Shown: positions 2,947 to 21,600 of the stretch, piece after piece
How positions within the stretch are numbered: the first letter of the stretch is position 1
How the letters are laid out: the number at the start of each line of letters is the position of its first letter
Assembly: GCA_902800945.1 (NCBI GenBank)
Contig: CADCFX010000016.1
Coordinates: 1-35,939 of the forward strand
Reading direction: 5' to 3'
Origin: an uncultured Erysipelotrichaceae bacterium
GTDB lineage: Bacteria; Bacillota_I; Bacilli_A; RF39; UBA660
DNA: 35,939 nt
The notes under the pieces: generated by a model
The model's database searches: none
Told to the model about the DNA's origin: nothing
What the model saw: only the letters and a program-made list of their open reading frames with translations
Made by a program: the position numbers and the translations under genes

Positions 2947-2956
2947 CTTCTTATAT

Positions 2957-3054
2957 GTTATCAAGAGCGGACGAGAGAATCGGCTTTATGACTCCGCAGC
3001 AACCTATTAAGTTAGGTGCTAAGACCGACAAAGTGGAATGCTTTGGCTGATGAT
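2957..3054 (+). promoter_or_regulatory. SAM-I (S-box) riboswitch aptamer
   Basis: The region carries S-box landmarks in order: TTATCAAGAG at the 5' side, CTTTATGA, CAGCAACC, GGTGCTAA and a final AAAG..CTTTGG hairpin. Helices are visible: P1 TTATCA/TGATGA (2958-2963 with 3048-3053, one G-U), P2 GCGGA/TCCGC (2967-2971 with 2993-2997), P3 ACCTA/TAGGT (3002-3006 with 3013-3017) and P4 AAAG/CTTT. It precedes metK and a terminator, as expected for SAM-mediated transcription attenuation: high SAM should stabilise the aptamer and let the terminator form. Confidence 0.95.
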
Positions 3055-3074
3055 TGCTATTTATTAGAACAATA

Positions 3075-3108: not shown

Positions 3109-3139
3109 CTTGAAAACATATAAGAAAGAAGGAAAATAT

Positions 3140-4252
3140 ATGAAAAAACTATTTACATCAGAAAGTGTAACAGAAGGACATCCTGATAAGTTGTGTGACC
3201 TAATATCCGATAGTATCTTAACAGCATATTTAAGAAAAGATAAAGATACAAGAGCAGGAATAGAAACAGTTGCCGGCAAAAACAATATATTTATCACCGG
3301 GGAAATAACATCTTCGGCAAAGATAGATATAGAAAAGGTGGTAAAAGCAACTATTAAAAGCATTGGATACTTAGGTAAGCAAGATCTTGATTATAAAACC
3401 TGCAAAATAATAGTCGATATTTCAAAACAATCAGAAGACATTGCTCTAGGTACTAACGATAATATAGGCGGGGCGGGAGACCAAGGAATGATGTTTGGCT
3501 ATGCTTGTAATGAAACTCCAGAATTAATGCCACTATCAATTTCCTTAGCACATGCTCTTACTAAACGTCTTACAGATGTGAGAAAAAAAAGCATTATTTC
3601 CGGCCTAGGTCCAGATGGTAAAACTCAAGTAACAGTAGAATATAACGATGATAGAATATCAAGGATTGATACAATTATTATTTCTACAGAACATGAAGAA
3701 TCAAAAGATATAGAAACTTTAAAAACTGAAATAATAAAAGAAGTAATAAATAAAGAAATACCATCTGACCTAATAGATGGCAATACTAAAATTCTTATTA
3801 ACCCTACTGGCCGTTTTGTAATAGGTGGCCCTTTAGGAGATAGTGGCTTAACAGGAAGAAAGATTATTGTAGATACCTATGGCGGTCACGCAAGACATGG
3901 AGGAGGAGCGTTTTCGGGAAAAGATCCAACTAAGGTCGACCGTTCCGCCTCTTATATGGCTAGACATATAGCCAAAAACATAGTGGCCCACCATTACGCT
4001 GATAAATGTGAAATTCAAATATCTTATGCTATTGGTATCAAAGAACCAATTGCAGTTAATATAAATACTTTCAATACTAATAAAATCAGTGAAGATGAAA
4101 TCTTAGAAAAAATACTAAAAACATTCGATTTAACTCCTCGAGGGATTATTAAACATTTAAAATTACGAAACATTGATTATACTAAAACAACAAATTATGG
4201 TCATTTTGGCAAAAAAGATTTGCCATGGGAAAACGTTTTAAGCGATTTTTGA
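3140..4252 (+). CDS. metK: S-adenosylmethionine synthetase (methionine adenosyltransferase)
   Basis: Makes S-adenosylmethionine from ATP and methionine in the cytoplasm. The 370-residue product has the family signatures: TSESVTEGHPDKLCD at the N-terminus (methionine/ATP/Mg site), GGAGDQGMMFGYA (the GAGDQG signature), FVIGGPLGDSGLTGRKIIVD and GGGAFSGKDPTKVDRSASY (the GGGAFSGKDP signature). It is near normal length (usually 380-400), with a slightly short C-terminus. ATG 3140 is chosen over the upstream frame start at 3110 because GAAGGAAA precedes it and homology begins there. The S-box riboswitch and terminator upstream show feedback control by its own product. It ends in TGA, evidence for the standard bacterial code. 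The promoter of the next gene overlaps its stop. Confidence 0.97.
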   Translation: MKKLFTSESVTEGHPDKLCDLISDSILTAYLRKDKDTRAGIETVAGKNNIFITGEITSSAKIDIEKVVKATIKSIGYLGKQDLDYKTCKIIVDISKQSEDIALGTNDNIGGAGDQGMMFGYACNETPELMPLSISLAHALTKRLTDVRKKSIISGLGPDGKTQVTVEYNDDRISRIDTIIISTEHEESKDIETLKTEIIKEVINKEIPSDLIDGNTKILINPTGRFVIGGPLGDSGLTGRKIIVDTYGGHARHGGGAFSGKDPTKVDRSASYMARHIAKNIVAHHYADKCEIQISYAIGIKEPIAVNINTFNTNKISEDEILEKILKTFDLTPRGIIKHLKLRNIDYTKTTNYGHFGKKDLPWENVLSDF

Positions 4253-16169: not shown

Positions 16170-16197
16170 ACACTATCGTGAAGATAGTGTTTATTCT
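16164..16197. terminator. bidirectional terminator overlapping both stop codons
   Basis: A long inverted repeat GAATAAACACTATC/GATAGTGTTTATTC with loop GTGAA. The stop codons of licD-like (+) and the unknown gene (-) are both inside the stem, with A-rich and T-rich flanks on each side. Confidence 0.88.
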
Positions 16198-17255
16198 TTA
16201 AACAATTTTAATACTAAATCCAATCTTGAGGACTGTTTAACATAACCCATATCCAGTTCTGTCTCTATCGGAGGAACAGATTGGTATAGTTGTTCCAAAT
16301 TACTGGTAAGAATAGCGTCTAAACCAGGTTCATAAAAATCCTTAATCGACATCTTAGCGTTTCTTTTTAAACCTATATTAAACCTCTTGATAACCTTTCT
16401 TATCTCGTCATAATAAAGCTTTCTGCTATTTTTATCGATTTCGGACGCTTGATTAACAGCTAAAACGGCCCTTTTAACTTCAACATAGAAATCCCTTTTT
16501 ATCGTATTTATATGACTGCTCTTCTGTAAAAGGGCAATATATCTTTTTTGTATAGCAAAGAACTCATTATTGTAAGCAATCCAATCTGAAGGAACAAAAT
16601 AATCATCATTTTCATTGTCAATAATGGGATTGTTATCTAACATCTTTGCAACAGGTTTTCCTACAGGATAGTAAAATCCAGCCGTTCTTAGTAATAGCAA
16701 ACCTACATGTATTAACTCTGCTTCAAATGCCGGAAGAGATTCTGTGGGTACAACATCACCAATTAAATATGAAGCAATAATTGCTGATAAAGATAATAAA
16801 AGAACAGTTAATTCTTTAGCGATAATTCGATCAGTAGAACATATACAATAATCTATATATTGTTTCAACAGTCTTAACTCGCCCAAATGGCTTGGCAAGA
16901 CATTTCCAAATCTATATCCAATATCTAATCGCTGTAATAGCTTTAATTGACTACTATCTATAGTTCTAGCCATAAGTTTTTCAAGATATATATTATTAAT
17001 GTTTGGCTGCTGTATCTCCTCATACTGATCCTTACTTAAAAGTATATAAAAAGCCTTTTTCCCGTTTGCGAATGCTGTAATATGAGGGTAGTCGCCATTG
17101 TCTCCCTGATAAACTAATAGGTAACTTTTTGTCATCTCACTATTAATGGCGTATAAAAAAACATTTAAAGGAATTCTCTTGGTGGATGAAACCAAAAAGC
17201 CATCATTAGCTAGTCTGTATTTGGTTAAAACTCTTTTATTCACAGTTTCTCCCAT
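16191..17255 (-). CDS. hypothetical protein, 354 aa
   Basis: I do not recognise this family. ATG at 17253-17255 is chosen over the upstream frame start at 17303 because AAGGGGGAAAA precedes it. The N-terminal third (VNKRVLTKYRLANDGFLVSS, YLLVYQGDNGDYPHITAF) looks like a small beta domain; the middle is helical with one hydrophobic stretch (LTVLLLSLSAIIASYLIGDV) that might be a buried helix or a membrane segment; the C-terminal third is helical and lysine-rich. No catalytic motif is obvious. It has its own strong promoter and terminator, so it is monocistronic. Its neighbour across the gap is a candidate large RNA, with no evidence that they are linked. Confidence 0.65.
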   Translation of the reverse strand: MGETVNKRVLTKYRLANDGFLVSSTKRIPLNVFLYAINSEMTKSYLLVYQGDNGDYPHITAFANGKKAFYILLSKDQYEEIQQPNINNIYLEKLMARTIDSSQLKLLQRLDIGYRFGNVLPSHLGELRLLKQYIDYCICSTDRIIAKELTVLLLSLSAIIASYLIGDVVPTESLPAFEAELIHVGLLLLRTAGFYYPVGKPVAKMLDNNPIIDNENDDYFVPSDWIAYNNEFFAIQKRYIALLQKSSHINTIKRDFYVEVKRAVLAVNQASEIDKNSRKLYYDEIRKVIKRFNIGLKRNAKMSIKDFYEPGLDAILTSNLEQLYQSVPPIETELDMGYVKQSSRLDLVLKLFKE

Positions 17256-17285
17256 CCTATTTTCCCCCTTTTTTGAACTAATAAG

Positions 17286-17314
17286 ATTATAGATTATACA
17301 CAACTCAAAGTCAA
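17286..17314 (-). promoter_or_regulatory. promoter of the reverse hypothetical gene
   Basis: Reverse strand TTGACT (17314-17309), 17-bp spacer, TATAAT (17291-17286). A second TATAAT (17298-17293) lies within the spacer. The leader is about 25 bases. Confidence 0.8.
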
Positions 17315-17435
17315 ACTAATATGTATTGCTTCAGTTGATACAATTGTAAATTAATTCTCAAGGCCCGAAAATAGGGGAAAAATCATTATTAAATATGAAA
17401 CATTTACAAAAATGTAAAAAAAATCAAAAAAAGTA

Positions 17436-17464
17436 TTTACAAATAAAAAGAAATATATTATCAT
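17436..17464 (+). promoter_or_regulatory. promoter of the candidate structured RNA
   Basis: TTTACA (17436-17441), 17-bp spacer, TATCAT (17459-17464). Transcription would begin near 17471, directly before the first hairpin. Confidence 0.7.
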
Positions 17465-17470
17465 AAATGT

Positions 17471-17898
17471 AGTGATAAGATATTATATATCATATCATTA
17501 GATGATATAACTTAGTCGTTATATTATCCGTATTAATAAGACTTGTTCTTATTAATATGTATTCTAATAGAAGTATAATAAAAATACTTTCTATTAGAGC
17601 CCTGTAGGTTAGTTTACTAACTTACAAATTTAAATGGTACACACTTAGTTGTGATATGCTTAAAAGCTTATCTGCTAAATAAATTACTATTTAAACGATT
17701 CGTTGTTTAAAGTGCTATAGCGTTGTAATATTATTATTTAGTAGCGAGCATACACTTAACTAATAATCCAGCCTTTATTTCTTGATTCTAAAAGTGGATT
17801 TGTAGAGATGTCAACTCGAGTGTGTGTAGTAAACCTGGCCGGCCTTTAATGGTTTACTACTTTCAAGACAAAGTTAGCCTTGACAAGCTAACTTTTTT
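17471..17898 (+). ncRNA. candidate large structured non-coding RNA, about 430 nt
   Basis: The 710-bp stretch 17256-17965 has no convincing gene but contains a promoter, a chain of strong inverted repeats and an intrinsic terminator. Stems seen by eye: ATATCAT/ATGATAT (17492-17508); ATTAATAAG/CTTATTAAT (17532-17556); a 13-14-bp stem with one bulge, 17563-17576 with 17584-17598; GTAGGTTAGT/ACTAACTTAC (17604-17625); a long multi-part arm 17645-17763 built from TTAGTT/AACTAA, GTG/CAC, TATGCT/AGCATA, CTGCTAAATAA/TTATTTAGTAG, ATTAC/GTAAT and TTTAAAC/GTTTAAA; GTAGTAAACC/GGTTTACTAC (17826-17860); and the terminator. I find no tmRNA, RNase P or SRP RNA signatures. It could be a known ornate class I cannot recall by sequence, a new one, or a long attenuator leader for the gene at 17966. 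Confidence 0.6.
17870..17898 (+). terminator. intrinsic terminator of the candidate RNA
   Basis: AAAGTTAGC (17870-17878) pairs perfectly with GCTAACTTT (17887-17895), with six T in a row at 17893-17898. A preceding perfect stem GTAGTAAACC/GGTTTACTAC (17826-17860) may assist or act as a first terminator. Confidence 0.8.
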
Positions 17899-17909
17899 CG
17901 TGGATAAAT

Positions 17910-17938
17910 TTGCCTATTTCGTTAGGAAAAGTTATAAT
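17910..17938 (+). promoter_or_regulatory. probable promoter of the transglutaminase-like gene
   Basis: TTGCCT (17910-17915), 17-bp spacer, TATAAT (17933-17938), placed after the terminator. It would give a short leader holding AAGGGGGT before ATG 17966 and would make the upstream RNA a separate transcript. Confidence 0.6.
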
Positions 17939-17965: not shown

Positions 17966-18883
17966 ATGGATTACAGGGGATATATATCGAAACTTCGAAC
18001 AATTGAAATGAGACAAACATTGCTTGGACCTGACGAAGATGAATTAAAAAAAGCATATAGAATAGTTAAAGAACTTCAAACGAATTGCGGAGTTGACGTT
18101 AATAGTGAAATGAGATTGGAACCACTTAGAATCTTGAGCGATATGGAAAAAAGTTTTGAAAATAAAATGATAGTGTTGAATGATTTCAGGGAATTGAAAG
18201 CAATAACGGAAAAGAATAATGCTGAGATGACTTTGGATAATATAGTGAAACTAGCTCGTCAACGGCTAATGCTTCAACAATTTGGACACGTAATAGAGGA
18301 CTATAGTAAATTAAGAACATTAAATATGTGTGAAGTGATGTCGCGATGTGTCTTAGACATTTGTAATGAGGTAGGGGTTAAGGCGGAACTTAAATGCATT
18401 AATGCTGGATATACTAACCAAACAGATGTTTTTGGCGGCTATGGATATCACTTTGTAGTAATAGTTTATTTACAAGGAGAAAGATTTTTGGTAGACGTTT
18501 CTTACTCGCAGTTTTTTGGGATGGACCATAACATGATAGAAAGGCTCGGAATATGCGATATATTGAACTGTGCACCTGGCCTTTATATGACAATGACCGA
18601 AGAAAGACTTAAGGTAGCAAAAAGAATACTAAGAGATGGGTGGATTGAACTAACTGACTATAATTTGAAAAACTATTTAGATGGATTTACCTTGTGGTAT
18701 AGAAATGGCCTATATTATGAAAATACACAAGATTTTAGCTATATAGTTCCATATACTGCTTATGATTACAAGAGATTCTTAAGTGGGGAAGATAGCTTGC
18801 TAAATCACGAAAATCCAGAATATATTGGTTATCAGCGTAAACCACTGAAAGATCCGCATTTAGATTTTAGTAGAAGATTATAA
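17966..18883 (+). CDS. transglutaminase-like (papain-fold) protein, 305 aa
   Basis: ATG 17966 follows AAGGGGGT; the longer frame from 17822 would cross two hairpins including a terminator and is rejected. No signal peptide or membrane segment. Residues 118-180 look like a transglutaminase-core triad: a helix with cysteines (NMCEVMSRCVLDICNEVGVK; C122, C128 or C133), a strand with H162 (GYGYHFVVIVYLQGERF) and D177 (LVDVSYSQFF). The last two resemble the H-x-x-x-x-V...g-x-x-y-x-V-D-V pattern of bacterial transglutaminase-like cysteine hydrolases and of arylamine acetyltransferases. The N-terminal 115 residues are helical. Substrate unknown. The gene stands alone between the candidate RNA and the VanZ-like gene. 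Confidence 0.6.
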   Translation: MDYRGYISKLRTIEMRQTLLGPDEDELKKAYRIVKELQTNCGVDVNSEMRLEPLRILSDMEKSFENKMIVLNDFRELKAITEKNNAEMTLDNIVKLARQRLMLQQFGHVIEDYSKLRTLNMCEVMSRCVLDICNEVGVKAELKCINAGYTNQTDVFGGYGYHFVVIVYLQGERFLVDVSYSQFFGMDHNMIERLGICDILNCAPGLYMTMTEERLKVAKRILRDGWIELTDYNLKNYLDGFTLWYRNGLYYENTQDFSYIVPYTAYDYKRFLSGEDSLLNHENPEYIGYQRKPLKDPHLDFSRRL

Positions 18884-18914: not shown

Positions 18915-19385
18915 ATGAATAAAAAAGCAATAATATTATGGGTAATAACATTTATGTGGATGGGAATAATATTTTCTTTTTCCGCTACAACTGGAGATGA
19001 CTCCTCGTCCAAAAGTAAAAAGTTTACCTATGAAATTATAAATATTATCAAAAAGAATGAGAAAGAATCACAAATACATAAACAAGTAGAAAAAGCCAAT
19101 CCTAAGATAAGAAAAATTGCACATGCTTTTGAATATGCAGTTCTCTATATATTAGTTCTGCTATCATTAAAAGAAACGATAAAAAATACCAATAAAACAT
19201 ATTTAATTGCTTTGATATTATGCGTCTTATATGCGGCAACGGATGAAGCTCATCAATTATTTGTGAATGGCCGCTCTGGAGAACTAAGAGATGTAGTTAT
19301 AGATACTGCCGGTGCAGTCATAGGGCTATTAATATACGAAATAATAAAAAAAGTAAGTAAAAAACTAAAGAAAATAAAGGGCTGA
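18915..19385 (+). CDS. VanZ-like family membrane protein
   Basis: A 156-residue protein with four predicted membrane helices. It shows the VanZ-like signature spread over the helices: WMGIIFSFSATTGDDSS near the start, KIRKIAHAFEYAVLY in the middle, and ATDEAHQLFVNGRSGELRDV then VIDTAGAVIGLLIYE at the end. VanZ itself gives low-level teicoplanin resistance, but most family members are of unknown function; no other glycopeptide resistance genes are nearby, so resistance should not be assumed. It ends in TGA. The gene lies just upstream of the heat-shock regulated clpB, with its own ribosome site. Confidence 0.88.
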   Translation: MNKKAIILWVITFMWMGIIFSFSATTGDDSSSKSKKFTYEIINIIKKNEKESQIHKQVEKANPKIRKIAHAFEYAVLYILVLLSLKETIKNTNKTYLIALILCVLYAATDEAHQLFVNGRSGELRDVVIDTAGAVIGLLIYEIIKKVSKKLKKIKG

Positions 19386-19482: not shown

Positions 19483-21600
19483 ATGAATTATGGATATCCA
19501 CAACAAGAAGAAGAGGACGTATTAGTAAAATACGGTCGCGATATTACAGAACTAGCTAAAAACAATAAAATAGATCCAGTTATAGGTCGCGACGAAGAAA
19601 TTAGAAGTATAACAAGAATATTGTCTCGTAAAACCAAGAATAACCCAGTTCTAATTGGAGAACCAGGAGTAGGAAAAACAGCAATTGTAGAAGGTTTGGC
19701 ACTCCGCATAGTAAGTGGGGATGTCCCAGAAAGTTTAAAAAAGAAAACTATTTGGGAATTAGATTTAGCAGCATTAGTTGCTGGAGCTAAATATCGTGGT
19801 GAATTTGAAGAGAGATTAAAAGCGGTTCTAAATAAGATTAAAGAATCTGACGGCTCTATTATCATGTTTATTGACGAAATACATATGATAGTAGGTGATG
19901 GCGCCGAGGGTACAATGAACGTTGGTAATATGCTAAAGCCGATGTTAGCCCGCGGAGAGATAAAATGTATCGGAGCAACAACGTTAAATGAATATCGTAA
20001 ATACATTGAGAAAGACGGCGCTTTAGAAAGACGTTTCCAAAAGATTATTGTTCAAGCTCCAACAGTTGAAGATACAATAGCCATTTTAAGAGGGTTAAAA
20101 AACTCCTTTGAAGTTCATCACGGGGTGACAATTAAAGATAGAGCATTAATTGCTGCTGCCACTTTATCTGACCGCTATATAACAGATAGATTTCTACCGG
20201 ATAAAGCTATTGATTTGGTTGATGAGGCCTGCGCAACGATTAAAGTCGAAATGGATTCGGTACCGGTTCCTTTGGATAAACTTACAAGGCGAATAATGTT
20301 GCTGGAAATTGAAAGACAATCTTTGAAAAAAGAAAAAGATGATAATTCTAAAAAAAGATTGGAAGAATTAGACAAAGAACTATATGAATTGAAATTGAAA
20401 GAAACCAAGTTGAAGGAGGACTTTGCTAAAGAAAAAGAAGCTAATGAAAAAATACTAGATAAGAAAAAATCTTTAGAAATAGCCCGCCGCCGTTTAAAAG
20501 AAGCGGAAAATAGTTATGATCTAGAAACAGCGGCACGTCTAAGCCATGGCGAAATACCAAAACTGGAACAAGAACTAGAAGAATTGCAAAAGAATACTAA
20601 AAATACTTTGCTAAGTGACACTGTTAAAGAAGAAGATATCGCTTCGGTAATATCTAAGTGGACAAACGTCCCTATATCAAAGCTAGTTGAAGGGGAAAAA
20701 GACAAATTATTAAAACTTGAAGAAAATATGAAAAAAAGAGTAATAGGGCAAGATAAAGTATTAAACAAAGTAACTAATGCTATTATAAGAAGCAGAGCTG
20801 GTATCAAGGACCCTAATCGTCCAATCGGATCGTTCTTATTCCTTGGCCCAACAGGAGTTGGTAAAACAGAAGTTGCTAAAACTTTGGCGTATGAACTCTT
20901 TGATGACGAAAGACATATGATAAGAATTGATATGTCGGAATACATGGAGAGTTTTAATGTTTCTCGTTTAATTGGCGCAGCTCCAGGATATGTCGGCTAT
21001 GAAGAAGGTGGCCAACTTACCGAAGCAGTACGTCGTAATCCTTATTCGATAGTGTTATTTGATGAAATTGAAAAAGCACATCGGGATGTGTTTAATATCT
21101 TATTACAAATACTAGATGATGGTCGTATCACTGATTCACAAGGTCGTACTGTTGATTTTAAAAATACAATAATAATAATGACCAGCAATATAGGCAGTGA
21201 ATATATACTAGAAAACCTACCTAATAAAGAAGAGCTAATTAATAAAGAATTACACTCCACGTTTAAACCGGAATTCCTAAATAGAATAGATGAAATCATT
21301 TACTTTAATTCTCTTAATAAAGACGTAGTTTATCAAATACTGGATAAGATCATCAAAGATATAGAATATCGTCTAAAAGATCGGAATATTACTATTGAAT
21401 TAACTAATGAAGCTAAAGAATATATTATTAATAATTCTTATGACGAGTCTTTTGGAGCTCGTCCAATCAAGAGATTTGTCTCTGACAACTTAGAAACGTT
21501 ACTAGCAATGGAATTGATAAATGACAAGATTAAAGATGGATCTCATCTAGTGGTTGATATTGCTAATGGAAAGTTAGTTATTAAAGAAGGAAAGGAATAA
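19483..21600 (+). CDS. clpB: ClpB-type disaggregase lacking the N-terminal domain
   Basis: A Hsp100 ATPase that threads aggregated proteins through a hexamer, usually with DnaK. The 705-residue product starts at the first AAA+ module: GEPGVGKT (59-66), IMFIDEIH, then [21 protein letters not shown] coiled-coil middle domain follows at about 260-385, rich in E, K and L and ending before the WTNVPISKL segment. The second module has GPTGVGKT (455-462), [11 protein letters not shown] and the [10 protein letters not shown]-terminal region. The middle domain and lack of an IGF-type ClpP loop favour ClpB over ClpA/ClpC. ClpB is normally about 860 residues; here the N-domain is absent, as in several Mollicutes ClpB proteins. 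ATG 19483 has GGAGGGATATAT upstream. Controlled by CIRCE. Confidence 0.93.

Follow-up and report, generated by a model that had tools for sequence, protein, structure and literature searches.

The window, the whole stretch of 35,939 nucleotides of DNA that was analysed, encodes a conserved structured RNA of about 428 nt, carried by each of the four species that make up one sub-clade of an uncultured Bacilli/'Tenericutes' genus. The best explanation, to which we give a probability of roughly 0.6, is a stand-alone, trans-acting scaffold RNA whose copies associate via one or two palindromic contacts and which belongs to a class outside Rfam. According to this model the RNA would be transcribed from its own promoter and ended at its own terminator, and would serve as a trans-acting RNA or RNP scaffold, a role we infer, with copies of the RNA associating via the P11 loop and/or the P7 junction (Table 1) in a self-contact analogous to those of OLE and GOLLD.

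To our knowledge very few bacterial RNAs of such size and intricacy have been described. OLE, ROOL and GOLLD build RNA-only assemblies and, if the RNA described here self-associates, a further, unrelated case would bear on how widespread RNA quaternary structure is among large non-coding RNAs. The RNA is conserved in reduced genomes, of which one or more have retained OLE as well, a pattern suggesting that it is not idle.

The locus and its transcription unit

The RNA lies in the longest stretch of the window without genes, running from a minus-strand ORF (16191-17303) to an ATG at 17966 on the plus strand, in agreement with the preliminary description, which had picked out this gap. Within it a plus-strand block from 17436 to about 17898 is conserved, corresponding exactly to promoter through intrinsic terminator with no ORF inside. 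The promoter noted in the preliminary description was confirmed at 17436-17464, with the −35 hexamer and the 17-nt spacing identical in all four species, the −10 box reading TATCAT, TATCAT, TATTAT and TATACT across them and the upstream A-tracts conserved. Conservation among the four species extends from these A-tracts to just after the terminator, with the flanks of the RNA unconserved and the upstream genes varying between species. The minus-strand ORF (up to 370 aa, with its start at or before 17303), for which no Pfam or PADLOC match was found, adjoins the RNA only in its own species.

The terminator claimed earlier also proved to be conserved in all four species, as a hairpin at 17870-17895 followed by a T-run. 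A terminator scan program returned no sites at the locus despite this conserved hairpin, probably because the T-run is consumed by A-U pairs that extend the stem. Transcription from the RNA's own promoter to its own terminator would yield the transcript of about 428 nt. No ORF in the block is shared, the longest ATG-start ORF measuring 16-26 aa across the four species; a decayed gene, which the preliminary description had named among the findings that would count against an RNA, was rejected on these grounds, the 26-aa maximum being shared by none.

Table 1. Features of the RNA locus, numbered by position in the window
Feature	Position	Strand	Observation
A-tracts, UP-element-like	17395-17435	+	A-runs invariant in four species; conservation ends upstream
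Promoter, TTTACA-17-TATCAT	17436-17464	+	Promoter scan and conservation in four species
RNA gene, ~428 nt	17471-17898	+	Start inferred from promoter, end from terminator
P1	17472-17498	+	Compensatory changes in 6/11 pairs
P2	17501-17528	+	Compensatory changes in 5/11 pairs; 100% of cells paired
P3	17529-17559	+	Compensatory changes in 2/12 pairs
P4	17564-17597	+	Compensatory changes in 8/13 pairs
P5	17603-17626	+	Compensatory changes in 3/10 pairs
Linker TTTAAATGGTA	17629-17639	+	Invariant in four species
Conserved 3′ domain closed by P6	17639-17825	+	Identity between species 70-89%
P6	17639-17650/17813-17825	+	Nearly invariant; encloses P7-P10
P7	17666-17682/17734-17749	+	2 compensatory pairs
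P8	17690-17698/17703-17711	+	Nearly invariant
P9, tiny	Within P6 domain	+	1 compensatory pair
Palindrome GCUAUAGC, P7 junction	17714-17721	+	GUUGCAAC in G010
P10	17760-17770/17795-17805	+	Nearly invariant
Hairpin P11, 15-nt loop	17826-17860	+	Stem nearly invariant
Palindrome GGCCGGCC, P11 loop	17837-17844	+	GACCGGUC in G010; candidate symmetric kissing loop
Intrinsic terminator, P12 and T-run	17870-17898	+	Hairpin kept in 4/4 species
Promoter of downstream gene, TTGCCT-17-TATAAT	17910-17938	+	Promoter scan
ORF, 305 aa, Cys-His-Asp transglutaminase/NAT-like	17966-18883	+	Weak fold match; 3/4 species
VanZ-like membrane protein	18915-19385	+	Nearest gene kept beside RNA in 4/4 species
ClpC	19483-21600	+	After VanZ-like gene

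Homologues, fold and covariation

DNA searches of the organism's own genus and its relatives recovered full-length homologues with 88% (G014), 82% (G007) and 72% (G010) identity to the window, and querying all 15 genomes of the genus with the most divergent copy brought up no carriers besides these three and the organism itself. The four carriers form a sub-clade since their VanZ proteins are 54-58% identical to that of the window, against 34-42% for other members of the genus. The remaining 11 genus members yielded no copy, and none was present at those of their VanZ loci that were inspected. When 386 genomes of the family were screened with R1, a covariance model built on the 3′ domain, the sole addition was G288, a member of another genus, whose 4.7-kb contig (L049, G288:C51) is 99.66% identical to G007:C55 and most likely represents a misbinned contig in a public MAG. 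No further carrier emerged when R1 was applied to 395 genomes from the class or when 84,980 GTDB species were scanned with a 17-mer and the matches checked by R1, and phages, plasmids and viral contigs likewise yielded no copy. The large genome searches use strict filters and could have overlooked distant relatives. The RNA is single copy at a conserved locus, ruling out a mobile element or repeat.

The region 17459-17900 folds at −121.6 kcal/mol, compared with −81.3 ± 5.3 kcal/mol for 100 dinucleotide shuffles (z −7.68). The minus strand folds well too (z −7.4). An RNA from that strand was rejected as its consensus over the four homologues is weaker (−90 against −104 kcal/mol) with twice the A-C mismatches (10 against 5). 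RNAalifold gave 127 pairs for the four sequences. In a model of 12 helices, 27 base pairs among these four independent sequences show compensatory changes, that is changes on both sides of the pair, compared with a mean of 10 in shuffled alignments and 1-5 in slid controls in which the partners were shifted. Likewise 94.6% of cells are paired, with a shuffle mean of 89.1% and 31-51% in the slid controls. The excess of compensatory pairs makes a real structured RNA gene of about 428 nt almost certain, such that the structured RNA proposed at the outset, promoter and terminator included, is borne out by both conservation and the covariation called for as its check.

The two halves of the RNA differ in how they have changed. 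Twenty-four of the 27 compensatory pairs fall in the 5′ hairpins P1-P5, with two in P7 and one in the tiny P9, and the helices of the 5′ half are kept even though it is only 56-80% identical between species. P6, P8, P10, P11 and P12 hardly vary between species; their support is conservation, with almost no covariation of their own. The predicted layout is a fast-changing 5′ chain of five hairpins followed by a slowly changing, multi-branched 3′ domain. The stems of the preliminary description that match P1-P5 and P11-P12 are as it described them and its long arm is recovered as P6 enclosing P7-P10; the six nested helices it placed at 17645-17763 survive only in part, the conserved ones being P7, P8, P9 and P10, with P10 reaching 17805.

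Selection acts on the RNA sequence as well, since unpaired linkers such as ATTTAAATGGTA, AAAAGCTTA and ACTAATAATCCAGCC, like the P11 region, show little or no variation among the four species, whereas in the adjacent clpC and vanZ genes the third codon positions are only 49-76% identical. The linker before P6 (17629-17639) could form 11 bp with the invariant segment 17685-17695, a pairing without covariation that is alternative to, and incompatible with, P8; it may represent a pseudoknot or a conformational switch.

Probable independent transcript and proposed palindromic contacts

The RNA is likely to be an independent trans-acting RNA rather than a leader. A cis-regulatory leader, either a riboswitch or an attenuator, controlling the ORF-VanZ-ClpC genes by read-through of the P12 terminator would account for an RNA that ends in a terminator and that, in each of the four species, precedes VanZ on the same strand. 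We consider this unlikely. The RNA is not simply a leader because the downstream gene in the window has a separate promoter between the terminator and its start (Table 1), and a TATAAT box also precedes the gene in the two most clearly read homologues. The first downstream gene differs, being the ORF in three species and VanZ in G014, and 428 nt is long for such an element. Nor is there a shared alternative helix to sequester the terminator arm: among helices of at least 7 bp, or at least 5 bp with covariation, common to the four species, none except P12 uses that arm. A candidate antiterminator pairing the 3′ arm of P5 with the terminator arm was rejected, occurring in the window sequence only and being absent from the homologues.

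The sole gene order common to the four species is the RNA followed by the VanZ-like gene and then clpC, with an extra ORF between the latter two in G010. The ORF between the RNA and VanZ (305-317 aa) is present in three species and missing in G014. It has no Pfam or PADLOC match in the window, its AlphaFold model is poor (pLDDT 52) and its likeness to the transglutaminase/arylamine N-acetyltransferase fold is weak (best E 0.016). A link between the RNA and envelope functions, based on the VanZ neighbour, would be a guess. Elsewhere in the window a SAM riboswitch (RF00162, 69 bits) is located at 2955-3056 (+), upstream of an ORF at 3110-4252.

Three 8-nt palindromes, AUUUAAAU, GCUAUAGC and GGCCGGCC, are found at equal alignment columns in the four species, of which AUUUAAAU is invariant. 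In G010, GCUAUAGC has become GUUGCAAC through four substitutions, including an adjacent central AU to GC change, and GGCCGGCC has become GACCGGUC through two, both remaining palindromic; five further palindromes present in the window sequence are not kept there. The chance of staying palindromic under random substitution is 0.009 for GCUAUAGC and 0.05 for GGCCGGCC, rising to an estimated ~0.09 and ~0.14 respectively if only transitions are allowed, and all of the observed changes are transitions. As such the retention of two GC-containing palindromes, which is read from one divergent sequence (G010), is suggestive rather than conclusive evidence of self-association. The same palindrome-to-palindrome argument was used by Kretsch et al. 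for the dimer contacts at OLE L9.3 and GOLLD L21a, including a GGCC palindrome in OLE (PMC12286853). As free duplexes, the loop contacts formed by GGCCGGCC and GACCGGUC have energies of −20.7 and −16.5 kcal/mol. GGCCGGCC occurs once in the window (GC 30%), with a single further copy elsewhere in 680 kb of the AT-rich genome.

All of the evidence for a stand-alone RNA would equally fit a monomeric trans-acting structured RNA, whether RNP scaffold, protein sponge or ribozyme, in which the palindromes either arose by chance or fold into small cis hairpins. Such a reading gains from the palindrome evidence coming from a single sequence, and the changes at positions 2/7 may reflect a 2-bp cis hairpin. 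We regard it as rather unlikely, given that GGCCGGCC, very rare in this genome, is located in a hairpin loop and is replaced by a different palindrome in G010, and that the central AU to GC change in the second palindrome cannot be explained by pairing in cis, the two bases being adjacent in one chain. For an RNA that is independent, self-association via the palindromic contacts would be somewhat the likelier case. A more specific proposal, made tentatively and at less than even odds, is that the RNA represents a new class of homo-oligomeric RNA, forming a protein-independent dimer or larger symmetric assembly via two different palindromic contacts, in a small clade of gut bacteria besides OLE.

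Comparison with known RNAs

No Rfam family matched the block in the window at gathering scores. With permissive filters and a limit of E 5 the block gave chance hits only, all on the opposite strand and far below the family cut-offs, while the three homologues searched to E 1 gave no match apart from chance miRNA hits. The Rfam comparison advised in the preliminary description has therefore been made on the window and the three homologues, and its suggestion that the RNA might belong to ROOL, GOLLD or OLE was not upheld, a genuine OLE being found elsewhere in the genome with the same library. This OLE RNA (RF01071, 224 bits) was detected in a scan of ~560 kb of the organism's own genome, on contig C2 (G000) at ~56075-56556 (L196:17275-17756). 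It measures only ~482 nt against a model of 616 positions. OLE variants are reported to be common among RF39-clade gut bacteria with reduced genomes (PMC11332333). Directly after it lies a 171-aa OapA-like membrane ORF with a DxxxD motif (DVIGD).

A divergent OLE, ROOL, GOLLD or other Rfam family missed by the covariance models would share with the candidate a similar size range and many hairpins, as well as the GOLLD-like combination of a variable 5′ and a conserved 3′ part, and such organisms do carry shortened OLE variants (PMC11332333). Set against this are the searches described above and the separate OLE with its OapA-like neighbour in the same genome, to which the candidate has no sequence similarity. 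Since the library recognises the organism's own OLE, the candidate is something other than OLE; OLE itself, whose RF01071 model is unmatched in the block, was rejected, a divergent OLE is largely refuted and a missed member of any of these families is very improbable. In keeping with the preliminary description, which found no motifs of tmRNA, RNase P or SRP RNA, there is no match in the block to the RNase P or SRP RNA models, both RNAs being encoded elsewhere in the genome, and neither a tmRNA match nor a tRNA-like domain. G007 and G014 carry a normal tmRNA besides the RNA, although no tmRNA was found in the organism's own incomplete assembly. What remains looks like a new class absent from Rfam.

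Like ROOL, the candidate is a chain of many helices in gut-associated bacteria with no obvious protein partner, but it has no Rfam match and is 428 nt long compared with 659 nt for the solved ROOL env-120. As in GOLLD, the 3′ part is conserved and the 5′ part variable, and the symmetric kissing loops of GOLLD (PMC12286853) would have a counterpart in the putative contacts of the candidate, which is about half the size and again without Rfam match. GOLLD is found in a prophage or tRNA island, and ROOL and GOLLD generally occupy phage or prophage sites, often by tRNAs, whereas the candidate is chromosomal by VanZ-ClpC and gave no match in phages, plasmids and viral contigs; a tRNA search of the window found none. 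As a conserved structured RNA lying between genes in uncultured gut bacteria, it also resembles the 3161 candidates predicted automatically from gut metagenomes (PMC8040213), its novelty here being judged against Rfam. With OLE it shares the character of a large ornate Bacillota RNA with an adjacent membrane protein gene, and its palindromic P11 loop may be a counterpart of the self-complementary OLE loop that varies between palindromes and mediates homodimer formation (PMC12286853). Unlike OLE, its neighbours are a transglutaminase-like ORF, VanZ and ClpC with no oapA, and the coexistence of the two RNAs in one genome indicates that the candidate is not a replacement for OLE.
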